64,000 nucleotides of DNA. Origin: Deltaproteobacteria bacterium (GTDB taxonomy: Bacteria > UBA10199 > JACPAL01). The stretch covers positions 1-64,000 of the forward strand of contig JACPAL010000013.1 of assembly GCA_016180855.1 (NCBI GenBank). The letters are read 5' to 3'. Each line of letters opens with the position of its first letter. Position 1 is the stretch's first letter. Of the stretch, positions 9,398 to 29,531 are shown in pieces. The notes beneath the pieces were generated by a model. The model saw only the letters and a list, made by a program, of their open reading frames with translations, made no database searches and had not been told where the DNA came from. The position numbers and the translations under genes were made by a program.

Positions 9398-9457
9398 TAA
9401 CGGCCTTGTCTTTAGGTCTCAAGGTCTCGAATGTTGAGGGGAGGGGGTGTGTGAGGA

Positions 9458-12208: not shown

Positions 12209-12222
12209 TTCATTAAAGACAC

Positions 12223-12250: not shown

Positions 12251-12274
12251 CACACACAGCGTAAAGGGGGGGGT

Positions 12275-13135
12275 GTGTATCTCGATTTCTTTTCTTTTTC
12301 GGAAAGGCCGTTTGATGTTACTCCCGACACGCGCTTTCTCTATCCCTCTCCTCAGCATGAGGCGGCGATTGAGACCCTTCGATACGGGATAAGAGAGCGG
12401 CGTGGTTTCATGGTCTTGACCGGTGAAGTAGGGACCGGCAAGACGACCTCCATTCGTCAGTTATTAAACAGTATGGAAGAGAAGGTCGAGACGGCCCTCA
12501 TCATCAACCCCCTCATCTCGACCCTGGAGCTTCTACAGTCGATTACCCGTGATTTTGGACTCGATACGGGATCGGCGGTCTCTATTCAGGAACAGATCGG
12601 CCTCCTCAATCATTTTTTACTTGAGACAGATCGAAAGGGGAAAATTGCGGCGGTCATTATTGATGAGGCCCAGAACCTCTCTCTAGAGGCACTTGAGATG
12701 GTTCGTCTCCTCTCAAATCTGGAGACGGAGACACACAAGCTTCTTCAGATCATCCTGGTTGGCCAGCCTGAGTTGGATTCAAAATTGAATCAGGAGGCAT
12801 TGCGGCAGCTTCGCCAAAGAATCCAGATCCGCTACTTTTTAGGCCCCTTAAGCCGATCTGAGACACAAGCCTATATCTTGCATCGTATCAGAAAGGCATC
12901 TCCCAAGTGCTGTCTTGTCTTTAATCCGGAGGCACTCGAAAGAATTCATAACTACACTTCCGGCATTCCCCGGCTCATCAACACACTGTGCGAGCTGACC
13001 CTTTTAGCAGCTTACACGCGGGAGACCCATATGATCACCAAAAAAATTGTGGAGATCGCTTTCCATGAATTGAACGATAAATCCTGGGTTAAGCCTCACG
13101 GAAAACTGATTTCCATGATCAGGGGGAGATTTTAG
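12275..13135 (+). CDS. MshM/ExeA-family AAA ATPase
   Basis: 286 residues from GTG 12275. It begins MYLDFFSFSERPFDVTPDTR, the typical start of ExeA/MshM proteins (FF...PF...PDPRFLY). Walker A is GEVGTGKT (50-57), Walker B is IIDEAQ (129-134), and a C-terminal helical lid contains SGIPRLINTLC. Relatives bind peptidoglycan or help assemble the secretin through the wall. This copy lacks the C-terminal peptidoglycan-binding domain and membrane segment of ExeA, so it is nearer to MshM. It is followed after one base by the mshN-like gene, and the pair matches the ExeAB arrangement. Confidence 0.85.
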   Translation: MYLDFFSFSERPFDVTPDTRFLYPSPQHEAAIETLRYGIRERRGFMVLTGEVGTGKTTSIRQLLNSMEEKVETALIINPLISTLELLQSITRDFGLDTGSAVSIQEQIGLLNHFLLETDRKGKIAAVIIDEAQNLSLEALEMVRLLSNLETETHKLLQIILVGQPELDSKLNQEALRQLRQRIQIRYFLGPLSRSETQAYILHRIRKASPKCCLVFNPEALERIHNYTSGIPRLINTLCELTLLAAYTRETHMITKKIVEIAFHELNDKSWVKPHGKLISMIRGRF

Positions 13136-13136
13136 T

Positions 13137-13856
13137 ATGTCTTTATTACACCAGGCGTTGAAGAAGGCGGAGATGGAAAAGGAGGGGGGAAAGGGTATTG
13201 AGGGAGAGGCGTTTGTCGATAGCCCGGAGTCCCCATCGAAGATCGGAAAAAGGGTTATTGTTTTGATGGCGTTGGTCCTGATCGGACTTGGCTATCTTGT
13301 CTACCTCCGATGGTTCTCGGAAAAAGTGCCATCCGTTGTTTCAGTCCCTCCTTCTCTGAACACGCCTCTTGGCATTGGAAGTGCGACAAGCCTTCCCCGC
13401 CTGATTCAGGAATCCGATCTCCATCTCAAACAGGGGGAATGGGAAAAGGCGAGGCAGATTTTAGAAAAATGGGTGGTACTTGATCCACAGAACCCGGAGG
13501 CTTACAACAATCTGGGCCTTGCCCTGAAAAAACTGGGGCAAAAAAACAGGGCCTACCAGCAGTACCAGAAAGCCTTGGCGTTACGCAGAGACTATCCGGA
13601 GGCGCTCAACAATCTGGGAGCGCTTTATTTGAGTGATGCAAAACTGATCGAGGCCGAGATCAACTTCAAAAGGGCAGTGGATATTCGTCAAGATTACGCC
13701 GAGCCCTATTTTCACCTGGCATTGATTGCCGAAGCTCAGGGGAAGAAGGGTGTGGCCAAAGGGTATTACCAGAAGTTTCTTGGACTCTCCCCGCAGGTTG
13801 ATCCAAAGTTAATGATTGAGATTCGGGAGAGAATTGAATCTTTACCCGCGAGCTGA
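13137..13856 (+). CDS. MshN-like membrane-anchored TPR protein
   Basis: 239 residues. The N-terminus MSLLHQALKKAEMEK resembles the SLxxxxLKxxE start of MshN/GspB-like proteins. One membrane segment (about 42-58, VIVLMALVLIGLGYLVYL) is followed by a Pro/Ser linker. Four TPR-like repeats fill the rest (LDPQNPEAYNNLGLAL, DYPEALNNLGALYL and others). The topology suggests a short cytoplasmic tail and a periplasmic TPR scaffold that helps place the secretin. It sits one base after the mshM-like gene. Assignment to MshN rests on order and architecture. Confidence 0.7.
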   Translation: MSLLHQALKKAEMEKEGGKGIEGEAFVDSPESPSKIGKRVIVLMALVLIGLGYLVYLRWFSEKVPSVVSVPPSLNTPLGIGSATSLPRLIQESDLHLKQGEWEKARQILEKWVVLDPQNPEAYNNLGLALKKLGQKNRAYQQYQKALALRRDYPEALNNLGALYLSDAKLIEAEINFKRAVDIRQDYAEPYFHLALIAEAQGKKGVAKGYYQKFLGLSPQVDPKLMIEIRERIESLPAS

Positions 13857-13879
13857 CAGGAGTAACAATCGGTTGAATT

Positions 13880-14788
13880 ATGGTGGATTTTCTTTTGCAG
13901 CTTAAATCCTGTTTTTGGGACCGCTTTCGGAACTCGGTCATTCTCGGTCTCGACCTTGATTCAACCGGAGGCAGGATGGTCCGTGTGACAGGCAAGGGAG
14001 ATCTCGTTCATGTGACCCATTGGCAGTACCCTGAAGTTATTGACGGTGGGGATCAAAACTCTCTGGAACGGTTTCGCGAGTGGATTCAGAAGGAAGGTCT
14101 GTCTGGAATGCCTGTTGCCTGCAGTCTGAATGACAACAGCCTCAAGATTCGGCGGGCTGACCTTCCCAAGATGCCGGATTTTGACTTAAAGGAGGCGGTG
14201 AAGTGGCAGTTACGCGACCTGGTAGAGGATTCGATCGATCACTACGTGGTTCGTTATACGGTTCTTGAGGAATATTCAGTCAATGAGGCAGATCGGTTGG
14301 CCCTTCTTGTCTATGCCGTGAAAAAGGAAGCCGTCACGCGGCTTGGTGATCTCTTAAAAAAACTTTCTCTGAAACCTGTATTGATTGAGCCGACACCGGT
14401 TGCCATTCTCGCCTCTTTGGATCGCTTCATGAAATGGGAACCGGGTGTCTTTTACGGGATTCTTAATTGGGGAAATGGGCCGGCCGGTTTTTATGTTGTC
14501 TCCGAGGAGAAGCTTTACTTCTCACGTCCGATCCAGGAGACGGAGGGAAATATCGCTGTGGAGGTCCAGAGATCTCTCGATGCCTTTTCCCTTGTCTTCA
14601 AGGAGAAGAAAGTTGAAACTCTCCTGCTCTGTGGAGGGAGCGGAGCCAAACCGGGACTCGTTGATGAGCTTTCGAAAAATTTGGGGATGTCCGTTGCTTG
14701 TCTGAATCCCTTTCAGGGTTGGGAGATTGCTGATGAGGCCCCATGCCGCTATGCGACGGCAACCGGACTTGCCCTTTATCGACCATGA
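13880..14788 (+). CDS. pilM: PilM/MshI-like actin-fold protein
   Basis: 302 residues. The start SVILGLDLDSTGGRMVRV gives the phosphate-1 motif of the actin-like fold. LPKMPDFDLKEAVKWQLRDL matches the PilM region that precedes the PilN-binding groove, and LLLCGGSGAKPGL forms the adenosine motif. PilM is a cytoplasmic protein that binds the N-terminal tail of PilN and links the motor to the inner-membrane alignment complex. The stop overlaps the start of the pilN-like gene (ATGA at 14785), showing coupling. The protein is somewhat shorter than typical PilM (about 350). Confidence 0.8.
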   Translation: MVDFLLQLKSCFWDRFRNSVILGLDLDSTGGRMVRVTGKGDLVHVTHWQYPEVIDGGDQNSLERFREWIQKEGLSGMPVACSLNDNSLKIRRADLPKMPDFDLKEAVKWQLRDLVEDSIDHYVVRYTVLEEYSVNEADRLALLVYAVKKEAVTRLGDLLKKLSLKPVLIEPTPVAILASLDRFMKWEPGVFYGILNWGNGPAGFYVVSEEKLYFSRPIQETEGNIAVEVQRSLDAFSLVFKEKKVETLLLCGGSGAKPGLVDELSKNLGMSVACLNPFQGWEIADEAPCRYATATGLALYRP

Positions 14789-15354
14789 TGCAACGGATCA
14801 ATTTTTTGGAGAGACAGTGGGTTGTCTGGAACTACCGGCTTCTTGCCTGGGCGGGGGTAGTTTGGGGGGCTCTTTTTGGTGTGATCATTGGCTATCACGG
14901 TTTGACGCTCATGTTGTTGGATCATGAGATCTCCTCCGTTGTCAGCGAGGTTAACCAGCTCAGGGAACAAAAAGAGGAGGTTTTGGCCCAAGTGGAAAAA
15001 GGATCCGGGACGATGGCGGGAGGAGTCGAACATCTTCGGAGCCTCTTTCAACGGTCGCCTCGTTGGTCTTTTATTTTGGAAGAGGTGGCCAAGCTCATTC
15101 CATCGGATAGCTGGCTTGTTAGTATCAAGTCGTATGTCCGGTCGGAAGATGCGATGAGTCGTGGTCTCCTCCTATCGGGGGAGGCGGACGACCTGCAATC
15201 GGTCTCCGGATTTCTGAAGGAACTCGCAAGGTCGAGATATTTTACGAGACCTGTTTTGACCGATTCCAAGGAGGAAAAGAGGGGGAACGGGCGTCTTTTC
15301 ATCTATACCATTGACGCCCGTGTTACTGTTCCCGAAGAGTGGGGAGGATTTTAA
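14785..15354 (+). CDS. pilN: PilN/MshJ-like alignment protein
   Basis: 189 residues from ATG 14785, chosen because it overlaps the pilM stop and gives MMQRINFLERQW, the conserved short cytoplasmic PilN tail that binds PilM (INLLP/INFL motif). One membrane helix (about 20-42) is followed by a coiled coil (VVSEVNQLREQKEEVLAQVEK) and a ferredoxin-like periplasmic domain with LIPSDSWLVSIK and LLLSGEADDLQSVSGFLKEL, as in PilN. Part of the PilN-PilO inner-membrane complex. It is directly followed by the pilO-like gene with no gap. Confidence 0.82.
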   Translation: MMQRINFLERQWVVWNYRLLAWAGVVWGALFGVIIGYHGLTLMLLDHEISSVVSEVNQLREQKEEVLAQVEKGSGTMAGGVEHLRSLFQRSPRWSFILEEVAKLIPSDSWLVSIKSYVRSEDAMSRGLLLSGEADDLQSVSGFLKELARSRYFTRPVLTDSKEEKRGNGRLFIYTIDARVTVPEEWGGF

Positions 15355-15921
15355 ATGGAATGGAATGACACCCCCCCCCAGCGGGAGGGAATTCTCTTTC
15401 TTGCGGTATTGACGACTCTTTTTCTCTTCTTGATCCAGTTTCATTTTTCGCTAAAATCGGGAAGTCAGGCAACGCGCCGTGCTCGTCTGGAGGCCTTGAT
15501 TATAGAGAGAGATGCCCTGGCGAAATTTCTGAAGAACACGCCCCGTATTCCCAAGGTTCGACCGGCCGATTCTTTGGAGGAGTCGAAACTAAAGGCGTTC
15601 AAAGAACAAGGGGCGCCTTATCAGGATCTCCCCTCCCTTTTATCGCATCTGACAACTCCTGCTTTTCTCAAAGGGACCCGTCTAGAGGGGTTTTCATTTC
15701 AGCCAGAAAAGATAGATCAGAAAATTGTCCAGACCGATTTTATCCTCCAGGCCAGCGGGACCTTTGGGGGGGTTGTTCAGTATCTTCGGCAGCTTGAAAC
15801 ATTCCCGGCGCTCTTCCAGGTGGCCGATATTATTTTGAGTCGTTCCGAGGAGCGTGGAGGCGGAATTAAAGGAGAAATTTCCTGCCGATTTTATCGTATT
15901 ATAAAGGAGCCCCCCGGATGA
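15355..15921 (+). CDS. pilO: PilO/MshK-like alignment protein
   Basis: 188 residues. One N-terminal membrane helix (about 12-30) is followed by a short coiled coil (RRARLEALIIERDALAKFL) and a periplasmic ferredoxin-like domain. The stretch FILQASGTFGGVVQYLRQLETFPALFQV is the typical PilO core (ASG.Y..L..FL..L..LPRI). It pairs with PilN in the inner membrane and connects to PilP and the secretin. The start immediately follows the pilN-like stop, and the end overlaps the secretin gene by four bases. Confidence 0.82.
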   Translation: MEWNDTPPQREGILFLAVLTTLFLFLIQFHFSLKSGSQATRRARLEALIIERDALAKFLKNTPRIPKVRPADSLEESKLKAFKEQGAPYQDLPSLLSHLTTPAFLKGTRLEGFSFQPEKIDQKIVQTDFILQASGTFGGVVQYLRQLETFPALFQVADIILSRSEERGGGIKGEISCRFYRIIKEPPG

Positions 15922-17474
15922 AACGATACAGTTTACTCATCCTTCTTCTTTTTTCTCTCTCCTTGGAGGCGGCTCCTTTTTCGGATCTTGCCCGTGAGGA
16001 ATTTCAGAGGGGGCCTCAGTTTCTTTCCCCCGTTCCCCGAAGTCCTTTTCAGCCGGGGCAGAGTGATCTTGGGGCATTCGAGATAGATACTGTTGTCGTG
16101 CAGGGGGTTGTTTGGGGCGAAAAAATTCGGATGGCCCTTCTCTCCGACTTTGTGGTGAACGTGGGAGACAAACTCGGGAGCTATCTCATCAAGGAGATCT
16201 CCCAGGATGGGGTGATCCTCTCCTACGGAGGGATTGAATATCCCCTTAAGCTACCTCATCTCGTCAAAACTGAAAAAGGGATCCCGCGTCTTTTTCATGT
16301 GGAATTTCAAAACGCGGCATTGAGAGATGCCTTAAGCCTGCTTTCCCGTGCCGCCGACCTGAATCTCATCGCGCCGGAGGGACTCCTAGGGCAGGTAACG
16401 GTCAGTTTTCATGATGTCGATCTCATTCAGGCGATCCGCTCCATTTTACGCGTGAATGGGTACGAGTATGCGATTGAGTCGGGCATTATCCGGGTCGGAC
16501 GACCGGATGATTTTGCCGGTGGCACGGATCTCTTGACGACCAATTTCCGCCTGAAATTTGCCACTGCAAAGAACCTTGTCGACTCGGTCAAACCTCTTTT
16601 ATCGGATCGTGGACAGGTGATTGCGGATGAAAGAAGCAACACGTTGACGGTAAAAGATCGTGATGCGGTCATTGCCAGCATTCGGGAAATGATTGAGGTC
16701 ATTGACCGAAGAGACCAGCAGGTTCGGATTGAGGCGAGGATTGTTGATGCGACCCGGGATTTTTCGCGAGCGCTCGGCATCCGATGGGGATTGAAAGATC
16801 AGGGTGGGGACTTCAAGGTGAGCGGGACAAAAGATGTCGGAAAAAGTGCAGATACGGATACGGCCCTCAATGTCAATCTGGGGACTGCCAGTCCGACTTC
16901 CGGTATCGGTTTTATTATTGGTAATGTGGCGGGGCTTGATATTGAGTCCCAGATCACCGCAGCGGAACAAAAAGGGGACGTAAAAATTTTATCCCAACCG
17001 GCGGTGACCACCCTGAACAATATGCCGGCAAAGATCCGGAGCGGCACCAAGATTTATGTCAAGTCGACCTCGACGATCAGTCTGGGAACGTCGGGGGGCA
17101 CCTCGGCTTCAGGTGACACCGGGGGACTTCAGCAGATCGATACTGGTATTGAGCTCACGGTGACGCCTCAAATTTCGGTCGATGATTTTATCAAGATGAA
17201 GATTGATGCGACGCAGAGCGAGGCTGATTTCTCGCGAACCGTTGACGGAATTCCGGCGGTCGTTGACAGTACCGCTTCAACTACTGTTCTCTTGGGGAAC
17301 GGGGCGACAACGGTGATCGGGGGGCTCTACCGCGTTCGGACCTCCAATCAGGTTCGTGGTGTTCCCGGCCTGCACAAGGTGCCGGTTGTTGGCTACTTTT
17401 TCAGGCATAAATCGAGGACCAAGACCGATACGGAATTGATGATTTTTATTACACCTAAGATTGTAAAATCTTGA
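15918..17474 (+). CDS. pilQ: Secretin with fused PilP-like domain (PilQ/MshL)
   Basis: 518 residues. A signal peptide (1-19) precedes residues about 35-125, which match the PilP homology domain: the pattern SPFQPGQSDLGAFEIDTVVV, then GVVWGEKIRMALLSD and VVNVGDKLGSYLIKEI. A secretin N0/STN-like domain (about 130-200) and an N1-type domain (NFRLKFATAKNLVDSVKPLL) follow. The secretin channel domain comes next, with DIESQITAAEQKGDVKILSQP and VPGLHKVPVVGYFFRHK and the terminal TELMIFITPKIV. It forms the outer-membrane pore for the pilus. There is no separate pilP gene here, and the fusion accounts for that. AMIN domains are absent. It overlaps pilO and the transglycosylase genes. Confidence 0.87.
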   Translation: MKRYSLLILLLFSLSLEAAPFSDLAREEFQRGPQFLSPVPRSPFQPGQSDLGAFEIDTVVVQGVVWGEKIRMALLSDFVVNVGDKLGSYLIKEISQDGVILSYGGIEYPLKLPHLVKTEKGIPRLFHVEFQNAALRDALSLLSRAADLNLIAPEGLLGQVTVSFHDVDLIQAIRSILRVNGYEYAIESGIIRVGRPDDFAGGTDLLTTNFRLKFATAKNLVDSVKPLLSDRGQVIADERSNTLTVKDRDAVIASIREMIEVIDRRDQQVRIEARIVDATRDFSRALGIRWGLKDQGGDFKVSGTKDVGKSADTDTALNVNLGTASPTSGIGFIIGNVAGLDIESQITAAEQKGDVKILSQPAVTTLNNMPAKIRSGTKIYVKSTSTISLGTSGGTSASGDTGGLQQIDTGIELTVTPQISVDDFIKMKIDATQSEADFSRTVDGIPAVVDSTASTTVLLGNGATTVIGGLYRVRTSNQVRGVPGLHKVPVVGYFFRHKSRTKTDTELMIFITPKIVKS

Positions 17475-19153
17475 TTACACGTATCCTTTCTATTCTGACG
17501 GTTTTAATATCGTTGCCAGTGTCCGCCGAAATCGATTCGTTGGTTAAAAAAGAATTTCGAACGGCCTACCGTCTTACCCAAAAGGGACGGCATGAGGAAG
17601 CGACTCGGCATTTCGAAAAGATTCAAGAGGCTCCGGTTGCCTTTCGTGATTATATTCTTTTCCACTTGGGGAAAAGTCTGCTTGAGGAGAAACGGTGTGG
17701 ACGGGCCCGCGAGGTCTTTGACACCCTTCTTCGTGATTATCCGGACAGCCGGTGGAGCCGTTTTGCCGCCTTCCAGGTCGGGCAGGAGGAAAAATGTCCT
17801 CCACTCGTGGAGTTTTTGAAAGAGGTGGCTGCCTTTCAATGCGAATATCTTCCCGGAGAGAGGGGACAGGCCGACTGTTTCTTCGAGTCGAAGCGATATT
17901 TCGAATCCAAGGAGCTTTATCGGGCCTTGGCCGAGAAAGCCGTTGGGGAAGAGAGATTGACTCTTCTAAAGCGATACGCCAGTTCAGCTTCCCGGAGTCA
18001 GGATTATGAGACGGCGATTGCCGTGGGTGAGAGGATTCGGTCGGAATTTTCGGACAGTCACGTTCAGTGGGAGACGCTAAAGAAACTCGCTTATCTCCAT
18101 GAAATGAAGGGGGAGCCGGACAGGGCGGTCGAGGCGATTGAACAGCTACAGACCTCCGATCTTTCTGTGGAGGAGAGGTCTTTCTATCAGGAGAGACTCG
18201 CCTGGAATCTTTATCGACAAGGTCACTTTGAGAGGGCGTTGAACGTCTTTGATGGTCATCTGCGTGAGAACGATTCTTCCTTCAGCCTTTATTGGCGAGG
18301 TCGATCCCTCGAGCATTTGAAAAAGAAGGATGAGGCAAAGGAAAACTTTAAAGAACTGGTTCTCCGTCATCCCAGAAGCTATTATGCCGTTCGTGCGTTG
18401 GAACACCTTTCCTCTTCGTTTGAAAAAAAAGCGTTCCGGGAGTGGTGGTCTCCCCGGCGGTATCGTATCCGGTGGCACAAGGAGACCTTCTCTATGGGGC
18501 TGTCGACTCTTCTGCAGCGGATTGAAGAACTTTATGCGGTGGGACTCGAGGAAGATGCCCAGATAGAGGGAAGACGGTTGCGGGCGGTGTCTGGGATGAT
18601 TCTCCCTTTTGAGCCTAAAAGAATACGAAGAAAAAAAGAGGGGTATTCCTTTAAGGTTTATACCTTGAAGAATGAAACCCTTGATTACCCGCTTCCGTAC
18701 GGGAAGTTTCTCTTCAAGAGGGCCGATGAGTTTGACCTGGATGTTGATCCTCTGTTCTTATATGCGATGATGCGTCAGGAGAGTCATTATCGGGAGGATG
18801 TTGTTTCACCGGCCGGAGCGATCGGTCTTCTTCAGATTATGCCGGCGACAGGGCGACGTCTCGCAAAAGAGGCTGACTGGAGCGATTATCGCCCTGACTG
18901 GCTTTATGATCCCTTGACCAATATTGAACTTTCCCTCCACTATGTAGGAACACTTTCTCGGCGGTTTTATGAAAAGTGGTATCTAATCGCCGCTGCCTAC
19001 AATGCTGGTGAAAAAGTGATTGAGAGATGGCTCCCCTATCGGAAGGAGAGTGAGGAGGAAGAGCTTATTGAGATGATCCCTTATGATGAGACGAGGGATT
19101 ATGTGAAGAAGATCTACCGGAACTACAAGGCCTACCGCTGGATCTATAAGTGA
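17471..19153 (+). CDS. Slt-type soluble lytic transglycosylase with TPR superhelix
   Basis: 560 residues from TTG 17471, which overlaps the secretin stop (TTGA). A signal peptide ends SLPVSA. Residues about 25-400 form TPR/Slt70-like helical repeats. The C-terminal SLT domain (about 420-555) holds the catalytic Glu in MRQESHYREDVVSPAGAIG, then LLQIMPATG and AAYNAGEKVIERWL. It cleaves peptidoglycan strands in the periplasm. As the last gene of the pilus unit it probably opens the wall for the secretin or pilus, although a general housekeeping role cannot be excluded. It ends ten bases inside the convergent gene. Confidence 0.88.
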   Translation: MITRILSILTVLISLPVSAEIDSLVKKEFRTAYRLTQKGRHEEATRHFEKIQEAPVAFRDYILFHLGKSLLEEKRCGRAREVFDTLLRDYPDSRWSRFAAFQVGQEEKCPPLVEFLKEVAAFQCEYLPGERGQADCFFESKRYFESKELYRALAEKAVGEERLTLLKRYASSASRSQDYETAIAVGERIRSEFSDSHVQWETLKKLAYLHEMKGEPDRAVEAIEQLQTSDLSVEERSFYQERLAWNLYRQGHFERALNVFDGHLRENDSSFSLYWRGRSLEHLKKKDEAKENFKELVLRHPRSYYAVRALEHLSSSFEKKAFREWWSPRRYRIRWHKETFSMGLSTLLQRIEELYAVGLEEDAQIEGRRLRAVSGMILPFEPKRIRRKKEGYSFKVYTLKNETLDYPLPYGKFLFKRADEFDLDVDPLFLYAMMRQESHYREDVVSPAGAIGLLQIMPATGRRLAKEADWSDYRPDWLYDPLTNIELSLHYVGTLSRRFYEKWYLIAAAYNAGEKVIERWLPYRKESEEEELIEMIPYDETRDYVKKIYRNYKAYRWIYK

Positions 19154-20652
19154 TTTGAAAAGAGCTGTCGGCGGGCCTGTATCAAATTGGGCCGTTGATT
19201 TCCCTGCTTAGATTGGTGGAGCGCTTCGTTGATTTTTATTATGGAGTCTTCCTGAAACGCCTTCGCGTCAAATCGCGCGCGGGAATCTTTTGCAAAAAAA
19301 AGTTCATAGGCGAGAAAGAGACGGGGGTGTTTTTGCATGAGCTCTTCTCTCGTTTTAAAGCCATGGTTGGTATCGGTAACGTAATATCCTTTTTTTAGGA
19401 CATCCTCTTTCGTCTGAAAATAAGCGACCAGCGTTTCGGCTGAAAATTCATCCGGATCACTTCCCGCATAGGCCGAAACGGTGTTTTGATAGTTATAGAG
19501 ATCTCCCTCCCCTTTCTCTCGAAGACGACGAAATTCTGTTGAAATGAGTCCCTGTCGGTTGGCATTAAAAAAACGCAATTGGTCCCAGGCTAAGAAAAGG
19601 ACTCCCAGGGTGACAACGGCCAGAAGGCCGTATCGGGTCTTTGGAAATTTTCTGAGGACGTGAACACCAAGGACGAGCGAGGCGATCGCACTTCCCCCCG
19701 CCAGGACATCAACGAGAACTTGCGCTAACGTTCGTGGCAGGAAGGTGTCGTAGAGATTGTGGGTCTCCCATCGGGATTCCAGGGCATGCCGACTCACTTT
19801 ATTCCAGAGATCAAAACTCAAGGAATCGGGGGAGATTCGGTCAAAGGTGGCGTGGTAGAATTCGTGATGAAAGTGGGAGGTTGCCTCCGGCGTTGGTCGA
19901 TCGACCAGAAGGTTATCCGGGAAATACAGGATCTTTGTGTAACGGGAATAGGCGGCTCGCCTGACGGTGTGGCTTTCAACCTCTGCAAGTTGGGCCAACT
20001 CCGCTGGGGAGACAATGGCGATTGCCAGTGGATCGGTCGCGTGGGTCTTTTGGAAATACTCCTGAACCTCCTCCGGAAGGGTTTGGAGGTAGTACTTAAG
20101 TCTAGTTATTTGATCGTCCCAGAGGGGTCTTTGGCTGATGACGGAAATACGAAAATTGCCCATTAATACCATTTCTCGTTTGTTGTAGTCTTTGATTTCG
20201 AGGAGATCGATCGGTTTTACAGTGGCGGGCAGTGTGGGGAGTTTCTCCTCCGTTGTGAGCGGACATCCAAATGGCAGGCTTTTTTGGTAATGCCCCGCCA
20301 AGGCGGCCTGAATGAATCGTTCATAGTTCTCAAAGAGGACATGCCTCGCGAAAAGAGAGGCTTCTGCTTGCGGAGCCTGGTGAATGAACTGATTGGTCTG
20401 TTCTGTGGCATGATCAAGGGCATACAAAAAGCTGATTGGCCACTTGTCGATCGGTACCGTCTGGTTACCCTCCAGGACAAGAACCGATTGGGCAGGGTTT
20501 CGGTGAAGCAGGAGCGTCGCATAGGGGGATGCATCAGAGGTATGTTGATAATCGATGCGCAGTCCCTGGGGGCCAATGAGCGGTGGTTTCTGAAGAACCG
20601 GATCGGGAGTTTCAAAATGACAAGATGGATAAGTTCGAGTAATTGTCCCCAC
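19144..20652 (-). CDS. Putative membrane metallopeptidase, possibly 5'-truncated
   Basis: About 502 residues from GTG 20652; I do not recognise a family. A zinc-binding HEFYH motif is at 263-267, in SHFHHEFYHATFD. A possible third ligand lies in DPDEFSAETLVAYF (E403/E406), close to the NPDEFFAEAFA pattern of gluzincins. Two membrane segments (about 313-337 and 344-362) lie between. The N-terminus starts abruptly, with no signal peptide or ribosome-binding site. The only in-frame start is GTG 20652, and the upstream stop codon (20701-20703) lies inside a degenerate palindromic repeat copy (20700-20736). The frame between stop and GTG is open, so the repeat may have cut off the original 5' end. 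It might be a decaying gene. Confidence 0.55.
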   Translation of the reverse strand: MGTITRTYPSCHFETPDPVLQKPPLIGPQGLRIDYQHTSDASPYATLLLHRNPAQSVLVLEGNQTVPIDKWPISFLYALDHATEQTNQFIHQAPQAEASLFARHVLFENYERFIQAALAGHYQKSLPFGCPLTTEEKLPTLPATVKPIDLLEIKDYNKREMVLMGNFRISVISQRPLWDDQITRLKYYLQTLPEEVQEYFQKTHATDPLAIAIVSPAELAQLAEVESHTVRRAAYSRYTKILYFPDNLLVDRPTPEATSHFHHEFYHATFDRISPDSLSFDLWNKVSRHALESRWETHNLYDTFLPRTLAQVLVDVLAGGSAIASLVLGVHVLRKFPKTRYGLLAVVTLGVLFLAWDQLRFFNANRQGLISTEFRRLREKGEGDLYNYQNTVSAYAGSDPDEFSAETLVAYFQTKEDVLKKGYYVTDTNHGFKTREELMQKHPRLFLAYELFFAKDSRARFDAKAFQEDSIIKINEALHQSKQGNQRPNLIQARRQLFSNHL

Positions 20653-20983: not shown

Positions 20984-22564
20984 ATGAAAAGAACATTTGG
21001 AACGGCCTTGCTCGTCCTCATCGGGGTTCTCATTCAACCAGAACAGGCAATGACCTGCGGTTATGACTATCACCTCTTACATCACCTGACGACTCGAGAG
21101 GTCATTTCTGTCACCTCTGTTGAATTGGTGAGTGATCAGGGGGGAGTCAAAACCTATAGGGCGAAAGTTACTGATGTTCTACAGGGTTCCCTCAAGAAAA
21201 ATGAGGTGATCAAGCTCCTCTGCTCAGACCCCATGAATAAAAAAGGATGTGAGGTTAAACGAAGGAAGTCTCCCTTTATTTTTGTACAGAGAACATCGAA
21301 GATCCTCCCGAGAAAGACCGCTTCAAAAGAAAAGGGAAAGGTCGCGAAAGAGGTTCTTTATCAGTTTCATCCGAGTGATGGGGTTGCCCTTAAGGCCGAG
21401 GATAAAAATGATCTCCTCAAATTTTTGAAGGCAGCAAAGAAACCCGCAACCGTTTGGAATCAGGTCGGTGGAACTCGTAATTCTTACATCAAGGCCTCTG
21501 TCTGTTCTCTGATTGCAGAGAAGGAACCGGGAAATCCTGTCTTGCCGACCTGTCTGTCCCAGGTCCTGGCGACAGACAAGACCGTCGACAAAGATGCCGT
21601 TTTAAGGGTTTTGGCCCAGTCGTCTTCAAAATTGAAAAGGAATGCAGGGCCCCTATGTGATGTGGTGAAGGGGAGCTTCAATCAATCTCAGCCGAATATT
21701 TTAAATGAAGTAGAACTGACCCTTCGGACCCAACTCTCCTGTTCCGGTAACGCTAACTGGCTTTTGAGTGAACTCCAGAAGTCTGAAAATGAATTTGTCA
21801 CGATGTTGGTTCCTTATCACCTTGCCTTCACACGGGATGCCGCTGCAGTGAAAAAGGGGGTCGAGTTCTTCGAGAAAAATCCGCGGAAGCTCACAACGGT
21901 TATTCTCGATCAGATCGCCTATGCCCTATTCATGACGAATCAATGCGACCTCATGGATCAATATATCGAAAAGGGTCAAAAACATCTCATGGGTTTATCA
22001 CGATTTCTCCCGGCTCATTACCTCGAAGGGTATGCTGAAAACCCTGACTGGGATTCGATCGCTCAACATTATACCCGATGCAAGGGGCATCAACCGGGCA
22101 AGGCCAAGCAGCTCATTTCACTGTTGGCGGATTCACCTCACGATTGGCCCTTCCCAACGAAAGGGGGAAAGGTCAGTTTTCAGATCCAGCAGCAGGCCGT
22201 TACGGCGCTTGAGATGCAGATTTACAAAAAAATGATCACGCCGTCAGAAGAGGGTCTCAAGGAGGCGATGATGCATCAACTCCAGAGTGGTGATCCTCAG
22301 GTGGTCCCCGAGGTGATGCACTTTTTGAAGAGATACTATTCAAGCCCTGAGATCGACTCTCAGATCATGCAGGTTGCGATGAGGCCCGATGCCCAGAAAT
22401 ATTGGCAGAGCCATGCGATCATGGCATTTATGGAATCAAAACAGAAGGAGAAGGTGATTCAGATCGGTCAGGGAAGTCGGTTCCAACAGATCAAAAAGGT
22501 GGGAGAACTGCTTCAAAAGGGAGAGGGCGCTACAACCTCCACAAAGAAACAGGGGAAATTATGA
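20984..22564 (+). CDS. Secreted helical-repeat protein with possible NTR/TIMP-like N-domain
   Basis: 526 residues. A good ribosome-binding site (AGAGGGGGAT) precedes ATG 20984. The signal peptide ends PEQA, giving a mature start MTCGYDYH. Residues about 30-105 read like an OB-fold netrin/TIMP-type domain: the pattern VISVTSVELV...YRAKVTDVLQGSLKKNEVIK, a Cys pair (LLCSD...KGCEV), then SPFIFVQ. The remainder (about 130-500) is helical and repeat-like (HEAT-like), with scattered Cys residues. I do not recognise the whole protein. Its stop overlaps the start of the downstream metzincin lipoprotein (ATGA), so the two are translationally coupled. An inhibitor or chaperone role for the coupled protease is only a guess from the context. 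Confidence 0.65.
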   Translation: MKRTFGTALLVLIGVLIQPEQAMTCGYDYHLLHHLTTREVISVTSVELVSDQGGVKTYRAKVTDVLQGSLKKNEVIKLLCSDPMNKKGCEVKRRKSPFIFVQRTSKILPRKTASKEKGKVAKEVLYQFHPSDGVALKAEDKNDLLKFLKAAKKPATVWNQVGGTRNSYIKASVCSLIAEKEPGNPVLPTCLSQVLATDKTVDKDAVLRVLAQSSSKLKRNAGPLCDVVKGSFNQSQPNILNEVELTLRTQLSCSGNANWLLSELQKSENEFVTMLVPYHLAFTRDAAAVKKGVEFFEKNPRKLTTVILDQIAYALFMTNQCDLMDQYIEKGQKHLMGLSRFLPAHYLEGYAENPDWDSIAQHYTRCKGHQPGKAKQLISLLADSPHDWPFPTKGGKVSFQIQQQAVTALEMQIYKKMITPSEEGLKEAMMHQLQSGDPQVVPEVMHFLKRYYSSPEIDSQIMQVAMRPDAQKYWQSHAIMAFMESKQKEKVIQIGQGSRFQQIKKVGELLQKGEGATTSTKKQGKL

Positions 22565-23865
22565 CAAGAGATTTTAACTCTCTTCTAAGGTTCGTAATCA
22601 TTCCGGTCCTTCTCGTATCACACTTCGGCTGTACATCGATCGCTTTAATCAATCGTCCGTCACAAGAGGATCTTTTAACAACTGAAGACTCGGTAACCGC
22701 CAGTGGCTTTCTATTTAATTTTAATTCTGACGGGGAGTTTGAAGGTATTGGGGCAAGGGAAGAACTCTCGTGCCTCTCGACCTTTTATCGGGATGGCTAT
22801 GAAGACTATCTCGATTTAGGAACAGTCGAGTACCCTTATGCGACTATGTCCGATGAGACCGGTTTTTTCGAGATGGAGCTTGGGCTTTCCGGTGCCGGTG
22901 TCGCGCAATACGGACTCTATGAACTTTACTGTTCTCCCCTCTTGTTTCCCTCTTATTCTCGATTGCTCACCTATCGACCCGACCTTGCGTCGGCGGCGGC
23001 GCCAACTCAGAAGATCTATGTCGAATGGAACCCTCCGAGCTGGAGTGGTGATGGTGGTACCGATGGATTCCTTGTCGATCTCGCACTAACTGAATTTTTT
23101 AACCAAACAATCGATCTTGTCGGAGCCGGTATTAACCGTTCGGAGTCGCTCGCCATGGCCGAACTTGCGAAGGTGGAGGCAGAACGTCAATTTATGGCAA
23201 AATATGCAGGCCTTCGGGTAGAGATGTGGGAGCCTCCTTCGGGTGAGGAGTGGACCGCCGGCGAAGGGGCTGCCGCCAATGTACAGGTCGTCAATATGGA
23301 TGTCTGTTATAATTATGATGCTGCAGGTAATACCATTTCGAGTACCGATTCCTCTGGCTGTGATGTCAATATCCCAAATGCCCTCGGATATTGTTACGAA
23401 GACTGGTTAAATTCGGATCCAAGTGACGATGCCTGTGAGATCCTGATTCCGGCGATCGGGTCAAATATTATCGACCTGTATCAAGACTCAGATCATTTCA
23501 GTCCAGATGAATCGATCAGTGAGAGAATTGGTGATGTGGGGAGATTCATCAGTCGTACAATGGCACATGAGATCGGCCATCAGTTAGGGTTGGTGAATTA
23601 TGAATATCTCTACGGGAATGTCATACGCGATGACGATGGAAATCTGACGGGAGATTCTTCGCACAATCCGTACGAACCGGCCGTTGTCGCCGCCAAGAGG
23701 AATCTACCCCGTGTCATCATGCGCTCGGTGCAGGCACCTTGGGTTTGGGGTCTTGGGATAGAAGATTGCTTTACCAGAACACCAAGGCTTCCCGGTTTTC
23801 CAGTAGAGCGATGCCCCGCCCGTTTTAATTCATTTAACAGACAGTATTTAGAGAAGATCCAGTGA
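22561..23865 (+). CDS. Metzincin-like lipoprotein, variant third ligand (Asn)
   Basis: 434 residues from ATG 22561, which overlaps the previous stop and gives a lipoprotein signal peptide with lipobox SHFGC. The frame is open further upstream but lacks such a signal. The zinc motif HEIGHQLGLVN (336-346) fits the metzincin HExxHxxGxxH/D except that Asn346 stands at the third-ligand position. A Met-turn candidate, VIMRS, is at Met387. The N-terminal half shares LTTEDSVTASGFLF, a GLYELY strand and the MAELAKVEAER helix with the next gene, and the C-terminus shares ERCPARFNSFNRQYL. They are tandem paralogues. Probably anchored in the outer membrane facing the periplasm or surface. Weak or altered zinc binding is possible. 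Confidence 0.75.
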   Translation: MTRDFNSLLRFVIIPVLLVSHFGCTSIALINRPSQEDLLTTEDSVTASGFLFNFNSDGEFEGIGAREELSCLSTFYRDGYEDYLDLGTVEYPYATMSDETGFFEMELGLSGAGVAQYGLYELYCSPLLFPSYSRLLTYRPDLASAAAPTQKIYVEWNPPSWSGDGGTDGFLVDLALTEFFNQTIDLVGAGINRSESLAMAELAKVEAERQFMAKYAGLRVEMWEPPSGEEWTAGEGAAANVQVVNMDVCYNYDAAGNTISSTDSSGCDVNIPNALGYCYEDWLNSDPSDDACEILIPAIGSNIIDLYQDSDHFSPDESISERIGDVGRFISRTMAHEIGHQLGLVNYEYLYGNVIRDDDGNLTGDSSHNPYEPAVVAAKRNLPRVIMRSVQAPWVWGLGIEDCFTRTPRLPGFPVERCPARFNSFNRQYLEKIQ

Positions 23866-25088
23866 GCAGGAAATTATATTTACTCTCTGTTTTATTGATT
23901 TTCAAAACAGGTTGTCCCACAACCTGTGTTGTTCAACCCAATTTGGATGATGAACTGACAAGGGCAGATTCATTTAGAATGACAGGTCTTCTTCTGGACG
24001 TTGTGGAAGAATCGTCCGAACCTCTACCCGATACGACTATGCCATGTAATTATAGTTACTACGGGGAGACTCATGAGGATTATCTGGGAGGTGGTGTTGT
24101 TGATTTAGGGTGCGATCTTCGGTCAGGCACAGCCGGGATTTTTAGCGCTGATTTTGAGATGTCTTTACCAGGGCTTTACCGATTTTATTTTGAGCCGCCT
24201 CTCATTGATACGCGTCATCATTTGGTGACCTCACGACCTGATCTTCATTCTTCCAGCGATCAGTGGATCTATTTAGACTGGGATTATGAGGGAGATATTA
24301 CGGGACCCCACTTTGAGGATTTCTTTTTACAGACATTGGATTTGAGCCGATTTGATGATCCGGAAGAAATGGCTGCCGTCGGCGTTGAAATGGCCAAGAT
24401 CGAGATAGAACGGGTCATTCAGGAATATTTTCATGGGTTAAGGATCTATTTTTGGGAACCGTCGCGATCGGGAGAAACGCCAGGGGCCGACGTTCAAATT
24501 GTTCAGATTGAGTCGTGTGGAGGGGGGACGACAGAGGAGGACTGCGCGCTTTATCCTGCTGGGAGTGGTACCATTGATTACTTGAATGACAATCTGGTTG
24601 ATGGTTTTGAAGATGATTTCCCTGCGTATACCGATAGCGAAACTCCTTGTCACATTTATCTATCAAGTATAATTGATTTGGTTTCTATTTATTCAAGGAA
24701 TTTCTTCTTCAGTCCCGAGGAATCGCTATCAACCAGGGCAACGGATATCGCACGAAGGATAGCGGGTACGGCTTCACATGAGATTGGGCATTCCCTTGGA
24801 CTCGTTGATTATCGATTATTCAGTTCCTATCCCACAGACTTTCAAATTCGACGTGCTGGATCCCGCTATGGAATCGGTCATACCCCTATGGAGCCCCCCT
24901 TTGTGGCAGCAGTTCGCTATATCCCTAAAGAAATTATGAGTAACCGAGGGGGTGGTTTTGGGGGAGATCTCGATGACTGTAGCTCTCGTTCTCGAGAGTC
25001 AAGAGATCTTGATGAGCCGATTGAGAGATGCCCATCGCGGTGGAATCTGTTTAATCATCAATACCTTCGCGAGATTCTCTCCTGGTGA
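23862..25088 (+). CDS. Metzincin-like lipoprotein, HExxHxxGxxD type
   Basis: 408 residues from GTG 23862, overlapping the previous stop (GTGA). The signal peptide has lipobox LIFKTGC. The zinc motif is HEIGHSLGLVD (306-316), with His306, His310 and Asp316 as the ligand set seen in snapalysin-type metzincins and Glu307 as the base. A Met-turn candidate, EIMSN, is at Met359. It is paralogous along its length to the preceding lipoprotein, including the helix VEMAKIEIERVIQEY, GADVQIVQIESC and the C-terminal ERCPSRWNLFNHQYLREIL. It is the more likely active member of the pair. The substrate is unknown. It is followed 46 bases later by a third lipoprotein. Confidence 0.78.
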   Translation: MSRKLYLLSVLLIFKTGCPTTCVVQPNLDDELTRADSFRMTGLLLDVVEESSEPLPDTTMPCNYSYYGETHEDYLGGGVVDLGCDLRSGTAGIFSADFEMSLPGLYRFYFEPPLIDTRHHLVTSRPDLHSSSDQWIYLDWDYEGDITGPHFEDFFLQTLDLSRFDDPEEMAAVGVEMAKIEIERVIQEYFHGLRIYFWEPSRSGETPGADVQIVQIESCGGGTTEEDCALYPAGSGTIDYLNDNLVDGFEDDFPAYTDSETPCHIYLSSIIDLVSIYSRNFFFSPEESLSTRATDIARRIAGTASHEIGHSLGLVDYRLFSSYPTDFQIRRAGSRYGIGHTPMEPPFVAAVRYIPKEIMSNRGGGFGGDLDDCSSRSRESRDLDEPIERCPSRWNLFNHQYLREILSW

Positions 25089-25134
25089 ATAAAACAACAA
25101 CAGTTTCCGATTTTGGCCGATAACCCTAGAGGTT

Positions 25135-26664
25135 ATGTTAGGAATTTCTGCACGATCGATCGTTCGTCTCTTAGGGGCTGCCGTCGGCGTGGGTGCCACG
25201 GCTGCCTGCAGTTTACGTGAGGAAAGCCTGAGCGATCACCCCTGTTACGACCCGGACTACAGAAGCCGTTACTTACCAGCAAATCGTCCCCTTCGATTTC
25301 CACTGGTCATACACCATTTGCTTCGTGCCAATCACTCGGGACATTCCTCTCGGGCAGCGATTGATGACCGTCTTGAGGCATTGAGACAGGCGTTTGAGCC
25401 GGCAGGCATCCAGATCTATCTCCATCAGGAGTCTGATATTCCGATAGGAGACGATTCACTCAATCAGCTTACCCAAGGTGCGATTAATCTCTTTATTGTC
25501 GAATCCGGAGAGGATCAGGTAACCCCCTTTGATCCTGCTATCACGTTATCTCCAGAGAGCGATCCTGTCGACTGGGTTCATGCGTTCGCCCGTTATTTTG
25601 GACTTACTTATGATCGTGAGGATGAAAAAATAGAGATGGGGGTTTATGATCTGCAAGATCCTTTGAATCAGGATGAGAAAGAGACGCTTCAATGTCTTCT
25701 ATCGGAAGAGGTTGCCCCTCATCTCAATCCAAACCTCACTGAGGAAGAGCGCCCTCGTATAGAGAGTTTAACGGTAGGGTGTGATGACGATCCTGAAACC
25801 CTGGGTTCTATCCAGGAGGCGGTGGATCAGATCTCATGGGGAGGGGAGATTGTCGTTTGCCGTGGTGGTTACTTTGAAAGTCTCAATATTCACGGAGGAT
25901 CTTTTACGTTGGCGGCTAATATCTCTCGACCAGGGACCATCGACCCTGTTTTTATTAATCCGATAGAGGGAGAGAGGGCTTTGGCAATAAGTGCGGGTGC
26001 GAATGTGACCGTTGGAAATATCGGCTTTGCCCATGGAGAAGCGGATGAAGGGGGCGTTGTTCGTGTACAGGATAGTCAGCTTCATTTATATGATTCCCAA
26101 ATAGGGGGTGGAACAGCCGTTCGTGGAGGAGGACTTGCTTGTTTCAACAGTCTTTGCCGTCTTGAGAGGCGGGAGCAGGCGATGTTTATCTCTGTTTGTG
26201 AGGCAAGCGAAAAGGGGGCCGCGGTTTTTTTAAGCCACTCCCTGTTTACCACTTATGAAACACTCATGGATGAGGATCTTGTTGAAGGGGGGAAGGGGGC
26301 AGGGATCTACGCGGAAAGAGGTTCTGTTATCGAGGGGGTCAATACCCATCTCTTCAATATGAGGGCGGGTCGCGGGACTGCCTTATACCTCGAAGATTCA
26401 GTTGCCTTTTTACGGGGTGATTCCTCAATCTCAGCAACCTTTGCCATGGAAGAGAGTTCGGGGGCCGTTGAACTCGTTAGCGGTGATGGCGAAAGTACGT
26501 TGATGATCGAACCTCCATTCTCATGGAATCAGTTTGGAACATCTCGCGGGAGGTCGATAAGAAACAACCCTGCGGATGTCGTCATTCGCGGTGGAGGGAC
26601 CTACTCGGGGCTCTCCAACAATCAAGTACTGTTCTGTTCGACAGAATCCGGTGTTTGTGAATAG
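25135..26664 (+). CDS. Lipoprotein with degenerate metzincin-like domain and beta-helix
   Basis: 509 residues. The lipoprotein signal peptide has Cys at 25 (VGATAACSL). Residues about 50-175 look like a pappalysin-type metalloprotease fold: RLEALRQAFEPAGIQIYL, INLFIVES, then HAFARYFGLTY at 149-159. In this motif Ala150 replaces the catalytic Glu and Arg153 the second His, so it should be inactive. From about residue 215 (VGCDDDPETLGSIQEAVDQI) the protein is a right-handed parallel beta-helix of the pectate-lyase/polymorphic outer-membrane type, with GGGLACFNSLCR and GAGIYAERGSV turns. Likely an adhesin or binding pseudo-enzyme. It follows the two metzincin lipoproteins on the same strand. Confidence 0.68.
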   Translation: MLGISARSIVRLLGAAVGVGATAACSLREESLSDHPCYDPDYRSRYLPANRPLRFPLVIHHLLRANHSGHSSRAAIDDRLEALRQAFEPAGIQIYLHQESDIPIGDDSLNQLTQGAINLFIVESGEDQVTPFDPAITLSPESDPVDWVHAFARYFGLTYDREDEKIEMGVYDLQDPLNQDEKETLQCLLSEEVAPHLNPNLTEEERPRIESLTVGCDDDPETLGSIQEAVDQISWGGEIVVCRGGYFESLNIHGGSFTLAANISRPGTIDPVFINPIEGERALAISAGANVTVGNIGFAHGEADEGGVVRVQDSQLHLYDSQIGGGTAVRGGGLACFNSLCRLERREQAMFISVCEASEKGAAVFLSHSLFTTYETLMDEDLVEGGKGAGIYAERGSVIEGVNTHLFNMRAGRGTALYLEDSVAFLRGDSSISATFAMEESSGAVELVSGDGESTLMIEPPFSWNQFGTSRGRSIRNNPADVVIRGGGTYSGLSNNQVLFCSTESGVCE

Positions 26665-26768: not shown

Positions 26769-29531
26769 GTGGCAGACGCGACCCGTATCTTAATACAGGG
26801 TCCCGGGGGGGCGGGAGAGGTAATCCAGGGGGAAATTCAGTATATTCCCCAAGAAGATCCCCAAAAAATCAAACAGACACTTGAGCAAGAAGGTTCTCCC
26901 TTCTCCGACTACTTTCTCTTTCAAGGAGAGAAAAAAGGGGTCTATGTTGTTCAAGCGGACGCGACACACTTCTCCTTACTAGGCAAGCAGCTTAAAGATT
27001 ATAAGATCCAACTCCCTTTTCAGGAGGAGCTTTCGGAGACCGACCCAGAGGGAGCTCCGGTTCTTTCCCGAGAGATTACCTTGAAAGAGGTGATTGATAA
27101 CGAAGGGATGGTTCAAATTGAGAATTGTGAGGTCAAGCTCGACTCAAAAAATCCGCTACCCCATGAACAGTTTTTAGCTGGGCGACTCAAAGATTACTTT
27201 CTAGGAGTCATTAAAGAGAAGAAGGAAGAGGGTTTTGACCAACCAGAGATCGCCCAGGCGATTCAGAAGATACGTTTTCTCACGGATAGTCTCGCAGGAC
27301 AGGTCAGTCTCAACCTCGAAAAGATTCACGACTCAAAAAAATATCGTCTAAAAATTGCCGTGAGAGGAGCCCCTTTGGGAATTCATTTTGATGGGCTCCC
27401 TGTCAATATTGTGGATGAAGCGGGCCATTTTCTCGGCCCCCGGATGGCAGCCCATTTGAAGAGGCACCCTCTTGTCGTTGAATTTAATCGAGGTGCGATG
27501 AATGATAGTTTCCAAGATGATTCCCTCGAAGATCCCGTCTTGGATCATAGCTTAAATCACCTTTCCTGGCATTATCCCGATAGGGCTCCGACCCAAACTG
27601 AGTTTACCTCGATTGGTCGTGGTCTGACCGAGCTCACGACCGATGTGGACCCCTTTTTGGCCCCTCGGCTTCTTCCTTATGAATTGATGCCGATTCCTCA
27701 GAGTCTCTTTCAGGAGTTTCAGCTCTGGCTTACAACAAGGTTGGAGCGAGAGGTCGGAAAATATGAGATCAATGTTCAGCCGGAGGCAAAAGACGGATTC
27801 TGGAGATTTCAGGTCATTGAGAAGCCATTTTCACAGATTCGCATTTTTGCAAAAGATGTTGAGGAGCTCCAAAAGATCGGCATTGATTTAAATGAGGAGA
27901 AAAAGGAACTTGATCGTGGGACCGGTGATTGGTCTCAAAGGCAGTGGAATCATTTCATCGAACGACTTCAAAAGAAGTATCGGGATGCCGGGTTCGAGTT
28001 CTTGCACGACCATCCTGAGTCGGCCGTTTCTTATGATCAAGGAAAGATCTATTGGCTACAGGTCAAACAGCTCCTCCCACTTCTGCCGGTCGAGAACATT
28101 CATCTTGTTGTTGCCGATTCCGATTTAAAGGGTCTCCCTGATAAGGCCTCTCTCGAAAAGGCCTTTTTTCAACAGAAGAAAAAGATCAATCGGCAAGAAC
28201 TGCAAGAGGGGGCGATTCGATTAGGAGAGACATTTCGCAAGTCCGATTTTCTTCTCGCCTCATCTTATCCCGATAACAAGGAGAGTGGTACGGTTCCTGT
28301 TCAGCTTCATAATGAGGAGGCCCATCTTTCTCTTCGTATCGCTCGTTGCGGGCAATTCAGCCTGAGGGCAAAAGACGGGTTGCAGAAATCATCTCTAGAA
28401 GCGTTTCGAAAAGGAATCCAGTGGAAGAGGGGAGAGCCTTTTCGACCCAAGGAGTTTGAAAAAAAACTCATACGGATCCTTCAGCGGCTCGATCTGCAGT
28501 TAGATGGAGAGATTGAGTATTTTTATGAAGACGGCGTCCATCTTAATGTGACCATTCCGCTCAAGGCCCCACAGGCGGCCGCCATGGTAGGCGCGGGTAT
28601 CGATATCGTTTCCGGGACACCGCTCGTTCAAGGCTCTCTCTCCGTTCCTCATCGCGTTCCGGGCACCTCGCGATCCAGCATACAACTTGTCTTGGGAGGA
28701 GCGACACAAGGGGTCAGTGCGAGTGCGACGAGTCTCCCGATCACCGAAGGGGGGACACGGGTTGTGGGAGGAATTAGCGCGGATAGACAGAGTTATTCTC
28801 ATTCTGATGCCTCGACCCTTTCCATTGGGCCCTACGCCACATTTCTCATTCCATTAGGGAAGGAGGGAATTGCGAGTCCTTGGCAGCTTCACCTCCCGTT
28901 TCGGGCAAGGCATATACTTGAAAAGGGGCCGGATGGGAGTGAGTCCCACACGTTTTTAGGAACGGGTGCGGGCCTCTCTTATCTCGATGGCTCGCTGCTC
29001 ACAAAAAACGACCTCCTCTCACTCTATCTGGGACAAGATATTGATGTGGAAAAAGACGGAGAGACGGCCGATACAACAACGAAAGGAAAGATAGGCTACC
29101 GGCATCCCGTTAATCTGTGGGGGATGTATTGGGAGTGGCAGGCGAATCTTTTCCACCGTGAAACTCTTATTGGTGAGAAACCGTCAATTTATCGCATGTA
29201 CCAAGGCATGGATAGGCCAATCGACTTTTCCGCTGGTATGGATCGTGCGCCTTATAGGACCAACGCCCATCTGGGTGGATTTATTAAAAAACCGCTTGGA
29301 CCGGTTACCCTCGTTGCCGGGGCCACATGGACAGGCTCAAATGAACTAACCTTTTCTGGAGATCCTGCTGGATGGCATCAGCGTATGGGGGTCGGAGTTG
29401 GTGTGGAGCTTAATTTCCTGGGCGGAGCGACGCTGACCGTTGGCTGGCCGATCATGGAAGATGGAAAGTTTCATACCCCCGATCCGGTTCCAAGAGTAGG
29501 ATTTACGATCACCATTCCTCTCGATTTTTAG
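26769..29531 (+). CDS. OMP85/TamA-like outer-membrane barrel protein without visible signal peptide
   Basis: 920 residues from GTG 26769. The only in-frame starts are here or later, because a stop lies 30 bases upstream. Several POTRA-like segments can be guessed in the first 590 residues (for example FSQIRIFAKDVEELQKIGID and LDLQLDGEIEYFYEDGVHL). The last ~320 residues alternate hydrophobic strands and Gly turns and end FTITIPLDF with a terminal Phe, as in OMP85/TamA/FhaC barrels. No signal peptide precedes MADATRILIQ, which is odd for such a barrel. It follows the lipoprotein set after about 100 bases and could be its exporter or surface anchor (inference). Its stop overlaps that of the convergent dGTPase gene. 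Confidence 0.65.
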   Translation: MADATRILIQGPGGAGEVIQGEIQYIPQEDPQKIKQTLEQEGSPFSDYFLFQGEKKGVYVVQADATHFSLLGKQLKDYKIQLPFQEELSETDPEGAPVLSREITLKEVIDNEGMVQIENCEVKLDSKNPLPHEQFLAGRLKDYFLGVIKEKKEEGFDQPEIAQAIQKIRFLTDSLAGQVSLNLEKIHDSKKYRLKIAVRGAPLGIHFDGLPVNIVDEAGHFLGPRMAAHLKRHPLVVEFNRGAMNDSFQDDSLEDPVLDHSLNHLSWHYPDRAPTQTEFTSIGRGLTELTTDVDPFLAPRLLPYELMPIPQSLFQEFQLWLTTRLEREVGKYEINVQPEAKDGFWRFQVIEKPFSQIRIFAKDVEELQKIGIDLNEEKKELDRGTGDWSQRQWNHFIERLQKKYRDAGFEFLHDHPESAVSYDQGKIYWLQVKQLLPLLPVENIHLVVADSDLKGLPDKASLEKAFFQQKKKINRQELQEGAIRLGETFRKSDFLLASSYPDNKESGTVPVQLHNEEAHLSLRIARCGQFSLRAKDGLQKSSLEAFRKGIQWKRGEPFRPKEFEKKLIRILQRLDLQLDGEIEYFYEDGVHLNVTIPLKAPQAAAMVGAGIDIVSGTPLVQGSLSVPHRVPGTSRSSIQLVLGGATQGVSASATSLPITEGGTRVVGGISADRQSYSHSDASTLSIGPYATFLIPLGKEGIASPWQLHLPFRARHILEKGPDGSESHTFLGTGAGLSYLDGSLLTKNDLLSLYLGQDIDVEKDGETADTTTKGKIGYRHPVNLWGMYWEWQANLFHRETLIGEKPSIYRMYQGMDRPIDFSAGMDRAPYRTNAHLGGFIKKPLGPVTLVAGATWTGSNELTFSGDPAGWHQRMGVGVGVELNFLGGATLTVGWPIMEDGKFHTPDPVPRVGFTITIPLDF

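Follow-up and report, generated by a model that had tools for sequence, protein, structure and literature searches.

A lineage-restricted module of an exported partner protein and a predicted metallopeptidase lipoprotein, beside an unrelated pseudo-protease, in a deltaproteobacterial genome

The stretch of DNA analysed here (the window) comprises the first 64,000 nucleotides of contig JACPAL010000013.1 of a Deltaproteobacteria bacterium (assembly GCA_016180855.1). Four genes follow each other on its forward strand, and all four products carry an export signal at the N-terminus, as judged by eye:

20984..22564, + strand: P0001, exported partner protein, 526 aa, with signal peptide and predicted beta domain and alpha-solenoid
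22561..23865, + strand: P0002, predicted metallopeptidase lipoprotein of clade 1, 434 aa, starting within the P0001 stop
23862..25088, + strand: P0003, predicted metallopeptidase lipoprotein of clade 2, 408 aa, with a GTG start within the P0002 stop
25135..26664, + strand: P0004, neighbour gene, 509 aa, with a degenerate M43-like domain and beta-helix-like repeats

A first-pass annotation of this DNA had described four exported proteins on one strand, the first three joined by overlaps. Coordinates and export signals were confirmed, and both overlaps were located, an ATGA at 22561-22564 (P0001/P0002) and a GTGA at 23862-23865 (P0002/P0003); P0004 follows P0003 after a gap of 46 nt. Other gene pairs in the window likewise show 4-nt overlaps, and a scan for promoters and terminators gave signals no more than chance. 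The lipoboxes are poor, being consistent only at G-1/C+1. No significant family was identified for P0001-P0004 in Pfam or NCBIfam, nor in PADLOC and PDB-sequence searches with whole proteins and domains.

Directly upstream (window 3473-17474) lie type II secretion/type IV pilus genes, with three T2SSE ATPases, T2SSF, PilM and a secretin. These could export P0001-P0004; the two other copies of the module described below, unlike that of the window, are not near such genes. On the minus strand, positions 19144-20652 encode a 502-aa protein with predicted membrane segments, the sequence HEFYH (HHEFYHATFDR) and, further on, DEFSAETLVAYF. This protein, which has no Pfam match and just weak partial relatives in two genomes (G017 and G044), looks like a gluzincin-type zincin divergent from the cassette. 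On the other side, a 920-aa protein (26769-29531, + strand) displays POTRA-like repeats and a beta-barrel-like C-terminal end, as judged by eye. It has no Pfam match; a full-length relative was found in G044 only (34%, E=5e-150), and none was found in the sister genus.

The alignment of P0002 with P0003 covers both proteins in full (31% identity in 432 columns, E=7e-51), which bears out their earlier description as full-length tandem paralogues. Their family has five members, two on the contig of the window (C13), two on another contig of the same genome (C19) and one in a sister genus (genome G001):

L008:7396-8637, same genome, contig C19: P0005, peptidase family
L008:10253-11584, same genome, contig C19: P0006, peptidase family
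L009:9028-10461, sister genus G001: P0007, peptidase family

When the alignment was used as a query against 46 class/phylum genomes, the same five genes were recovered together with one motif-only match (L012), an ordinary HETGHLLGLGH protein that was dropped, its likeness being confined to the surroundings of the catalytic motif. In a tree of the five members, P0002 and P0007 form one clade and P0003, P0005 and P0006 a second, each with support 100/100. Despite pairwise identities of just 30-49%, HExxHxxGLV is common to all five members, so that its presence is not due to chance. At the family level, no match to the peptidases or to the partner reached significance in Pfam, NCBIfam or PDB sequences; as judged by these comparisons, P0002/P0003 are an orphan family.

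The predicted zinc site of the two peptidases is laid out as follows:

23566..23589, + strand: HEIGHQLG of P0002 (336-343), predicted to provide two zinc His and the catalytic Glu; kept in five members
23662..23664, + strand: His368 of P0002 (HNPYEP), proposed third zinc ligand, in an invariant His column; Gly-His = 24 residues
24777..24800, + strand: HEIGHSLG of P0003 (306-313), from the family alignment
24879..24881, + strand: His340 of P0003 (HTPMEP), proposed third zinc ligand, followed by the EIMS Met-turn candidate

The motif positions read at first pass proved exact for HEIGHQLGLVN (336-346 in P0002), HEIGHSLGLVD (306-316 in P0003) and HAFARYFGLTY (149-159 in P0004). HExxH, the Gly and the LV that follows are invariant in 5/5 members, and the family thus carries the metzincin catalytic motif HExxHxxG. 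The H or D of metzincins at Gly+3, the position of their third ligand, is not a feature of the family as a whole: across the five true paralogues the residue varies between N, D, K, A and S, with D in P0003 only, so that it cannot serve all of them as a zinc ligand. Exactly three His columns of the alignment are invariant, H306, H310 and H340 (P0003 numbering), and the last of these lies within an invariant HxPxEP, 19-28 residues past the motif Gly in the five members. This distal His is probably the third zinc ligand, in a leishmanolysin-like layout, and such a layout with three invariant His suggests that P0002 and P0003 are probably both competent for zinc binding and catalysis, and equally active. 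The series of active, variant and dead proteases that had been proposed is thus not supported, as Gly+3 varies within the family and P0004 belongs to a different, M43-like one. Candidates for the Met-turn after HxPxEP read EIM, VIM, EVM, EIL and TIM, with Met in 4/5 members and Leu in P0006. A profile of the catalytic domain gave weak matches to the PDB that were almost all metzincins, the signal being driven by the motif. The AF2 model of P0003 is poor (pLDDT 42.5), with a low-confidence C-terminal helix (394-405), and the Foldseek matches listed for this poor model were mostly Ig-like/beta-sandwich chains, with no metzincin among them.

In leishmanolysin (M8), whose active-site residues are H264, E265, H268 and H334 (PMC4580569), 62 residues are inserted between the Gly and the third zinc His (PMC5572447). 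The peptidases resemble leishmanolysin/GP63 in HExxHxxG, the insertion, the putative third zinc His and the candidate Met-turn, in their predicted membrane anchor and surface location, and in the expansion of the gene family. The Leu of P0006 likewise has its counterpart in one T. cruzi GP63 group with Leu in place of the Met-turn Met (PMC11957388). However, the insertion is only 19-28 residues long as compared to 62, and the N-terminal domain differs from that of leishmanolysin. The PF01457 (M8) profile gave no match over the cut-off in the own or sister genome, in the phylum or in the Pfam scans and, given this missing match, we make no claim that P0002/P0003 belong to M8.

The family of P0001 numbers exactly three proteins in the 46 class/phylum genomes, P0001 itself and two others:

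L008:8649-10256, same genome, contig C19: P0008, P0001 family, 39% identity to P0001
L009:7484-9031, sister genus G001: P0009, P0001 family, 55% identity to P0001

A further candidate, L017, was rejected as antisense noise on the opposite strand of a transcarbamylase-like gene. P0001 comprises a signal peptide, a mature N-terminal Cys25, a predicted beta (OB/NTR-like) domain (about 26-150) and a predicted alpha-solenoid (about 154-515). Its model is fair (pLDDT 78.8), with strands at 39-52, 55-67, 75-81, 99-107 and 122-128 and a helix at 138-150; the predicted N-terminal arrangement of a helix, five strands and a helix is compatible with OB/NTR, and the solenoid, which fills the listed Foldseek matches, matches ARM/alphaRep proteins. 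In all three family members the signal peptide probably ends just ahead of an invariant Cys (AMT^CGYD, AEA^CGYG and ILA^CGYG). The mature proteins contain 9, 7 and 9 cysteines, C174 and C190 being jointly lost in P0008; from these odd counts and the joint loss, the N-terminal Cys is likely unpaired, a state that also fits a lipid anchor.

The five peptidase genes sit in three loci from two genera, each with exactly one P0001-family gene, which overlaps the downstream peptidase gene by 4 nt in 3/3 loci (22561-22564 in the window, L008:10253-10256 and L009:9028-9031). On contig C19, the additional peptidase gene P0005 lies 11 nt upstream of the P0001-family gene P0008. Both families occur in the same 2 of 46 phylum genomes. 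A seeded scan of GTDB r220 (about 85,000 species) detected no relatives of either family, a seeded scan of viral contigs gave none, and neither did tblastn of P0003 against plasmids. Because the phylum, GTDB r220, viral and plasmid searches gave no others, the families appear, within the reach of these tools, to be confined to a single bacterial family. What is conserved is the pair of partner and peptidase, a previously undescribed module whose pairing, resting on three loci from two related genera, represents few independent events. Since P0001 and P0009 of G001 are 55% identical, the ancestral pair was probably P0001-P0002; P0003-type peptidases appear to have expanded by duplication in the lineage of the window. 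The C19 and G001 modules are found among ordinary genes, with mnmA-, era- and proS-like ones at C19 and a CTP synthase-like one in G001 (all named by eye). A few kb from the C19 module, L008:2290-3369 (+ strand) encodes a 359-aa exported protein that by eye resembles N-formylglutamate amidohydrolase.

P0004 consists of a degenerate M43-like domain (about 50-200) followed by beta-helix-like repeats (about 210-509). Its motif region is:

25579..25611, + strand: HAFARYFGLTY of P0004 (149-159), a dead version of HEIGHCFGLLH in G001, by alignment and tblastn (E=2.4e-11)

The N-terminal domain is related (27% over 193 aa) to a 277-aa frame of G001 (L023:8093-8926), whose product keeps the motif intact (HEIGHCFGLLH), carries HEIGHCFGLLHT and NFMSYY, and gives a weak match to PF05572 Peptidase_M43 (3.9e-4, just under the cut-off). 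HExxHxxGxxH is absent from P0004, and alignment with this intact relative showed that the Glu, the second His and the third His have all been lost, in line with the earlier reading of a dead metzincin motif. By these sequence comparisons, the domain is a decayed pappalysin-type (M43) domain and no paralogue of P0002/P0003. The pappalysin M43 family contains mirolysin, ulilysin and cytophagalysin (PMC6949598, PMC11674741); P0004 resembles it in its N-terminal domain, through the intact G001 relative, but the catalytic Glu, two of the three His (the second and the third) and the following loop are gone, and the domain is fused to a predicted beta-helix. For the C-terminal half, weak similarity was detected to further exported proteins from the class. 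No P0004-like gene was found at the C19 module or beside the G001 pair, and the intact-motif nearest relative in G001 lies elsewhere, amid unrelated genes. P0004 thus probably stands outside the conserved module, as no more than its neighbour: of the neighbourhood conservation expected for the cassette, that of partner and peptidase is kept in 3/3 loci, whereas P0004 is absent from the two others. Near the intact M43-like gene, G001 also encodes a 447-aa secreted HEFGHNLGLDH protein, a metzincin-type peptidase (L023:16393-17736, - strand).

We favour, at somewhat better than even confidence, a two-component envelope module. A P0001-family partner, with its OB/NTR-like beta domain and alpha-solenoid, would be made by co-translation together with a zinc metallopeptidase of the P0002/P0003 family that is anchored by a lipid. 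The latter would combine a beta-sandwich-like N-terminal domain with a metzincin-type catalytic domain, its zinc being bound by HExxH and the distal His of HxPxEP across a short, variable Gly-to-His insertion as in M8. The partner would most likely bind its cognate peptidase in the envelope, presumably at the surface, and may control or present it as a scaffold, chaperone or inhibitor. Beyond an envelope peptidase with a dedicated partner, we infer that the enzyme may trim envelope or environmental proteins. P0004 would be a separate lipoprotein next door, which may bind but not cut.

It is conceivable, if on the improbable side, that a new, leishmanolysin-like family of zinc-peptidase lipoproteins at the bacterial surface is co-translated with its own regulator, an OB-domain/solenoid protein that would either inhibit the peptidase or be cleaved by it, and forms with it an independently evolved pair of the TIMP/metzincin kind. 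It is unlikely that P0001 is a bacterial TIMP in the strict sense, a true inhibitor whose mature N-terminal Cys would chelate the zinc of P0002/P0003. TIMPs start with CxC and form Cys1-Cys70 and Cys3-Cys99 disulphides. The P0001 family has no second Cys at position 3, and its N-terminal Cys is likely unpaired, whereas a TIMP needs the Cys1-Cys70 bond; the unpaired Cys is also consistent with lipidation. The PF00965 profile gives no match to the P0001 family (none over the cut-off in the phylum), and profile comparison with TIMP-1/2/3 is at the level of shuffled columns (163/300 shuffles score as high), the TIMP-1 query having been checked against the PDB and those of TIMP-2 and TIMP-3 having been confirmed there by family only. 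The idea draws on the signal peptides, which probably end directly before the invariant Cys in all three proteins, on the chelation of the protease zinc by Cys1 of TIMP and the N-TIMP topology, matched by the predicted helix, five strands and helix of P0001 (PMC3679795), on the strict gene pairing with a peptidase, and on the metzincin/TIMP-like pair known from Listeria (PMC8235301). In its predicted OB-like topology and in the Cys that likely starts the mature protein, P0001 recalls TIMP/NTR (PF00965), but the likeness has no sequence support, CxC is missing, and a predicted alpha-solenoid replaces the TIMP C-domain. The predicted topology is compatible with the suggestion that P0001 might be NTR-like, while tests for a relationship to TIMP came out negative; TIMP-like inhibition by P0001 is conceivable.

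Regarding the peptidases, it seems quite unlikely that the lipoproteins have lost their third ligand (Gly+3 = N/K/A/S) and act as pseudo-enzymatic binders, with P0003 (D) alone active. For metzincins, D is accepted in the role of third ligand (PMC4580569), and it occurs at Gly+3 in P0003 only, but all five members, from both clades, share HExxHxxGLV as well as the distal HxPxEP, and a pseudo-enzyme would have no reason to retain the catalytic Glu and the third His. The Glu of HxPxEP could itself be the third ligand, as it is invariant (E344 in P0003) and lies 34 residues after H310, within the gluzincin range of 18-72 (PMC4580569); however, the motif Gly and the Met-turn candidate argue against gluzincin-like peptidases, as does the profile, which matches metzincins and not gluzincins, and we consider this the least probable of all readings. 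Very improbable, too, is a four-gene surface proteolysis or recognition cassette with proteases in active, variant and dead form plus a beta-helix binder. Indeed, four exported proteins are encoded on the same strand with small gaps, and P0004 is a decayed metzincin, but it is of a different family with no copy at the C19 or G001 module. Self/non-self recognition, as proposed at first pass, finds no backing, since there is no credible defence-family match (among the PADLOC families, one weak partial match only, to P0001, E=0.027) and the other two units sit among housekeeping-type genes. What holds up is a real finding of smaller extent and another kind: a module of partner and metallopeptidase that is restricted to one lineage, has a probable distal third ligand and lies beside an unrelated pseudo-protease.

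The closest described system, by analogy, is mtz-tim of Listeria monocytogenes, an adjacent metzincin and TIMP-like pair whose partner is a lipoprotein cut by the protease, the latter being soluble and equipped with a canonical HExxHxxGxxH/D, and the system being linked to phage/mobile elements (PMC8235301). In both cases the genes are adjacent (here in 3/3 loci), their products, a metzincin (here a predicted one) and its partner, are exported, and one of the two is a lipoprotein. Here, however, the predicted lipoprotein is the protease and not the partner. The latter has a long alpha-solenoid in addition, the zinc of the protease probably has a distal third ligand, no gene of a mobile kind turned up in the stretches read, and the likeness is one of analogy.

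The case of this family, with its probably distal and conserved third ligand, indicates that a reading of Gly+3 by itself can lead to peptidases being wrongly called active or dead. To our knowledge, few co-encoded metzincin/partner pairs occur outside animals, Listeria mtz-tim being among them. A second, apparently unrelated pair, with the protease as the lipoprotein, would let the control of bacterial surface metallopeptidases be tested, and would let one ask if control of the TIMP kind has evolved repeatedly.
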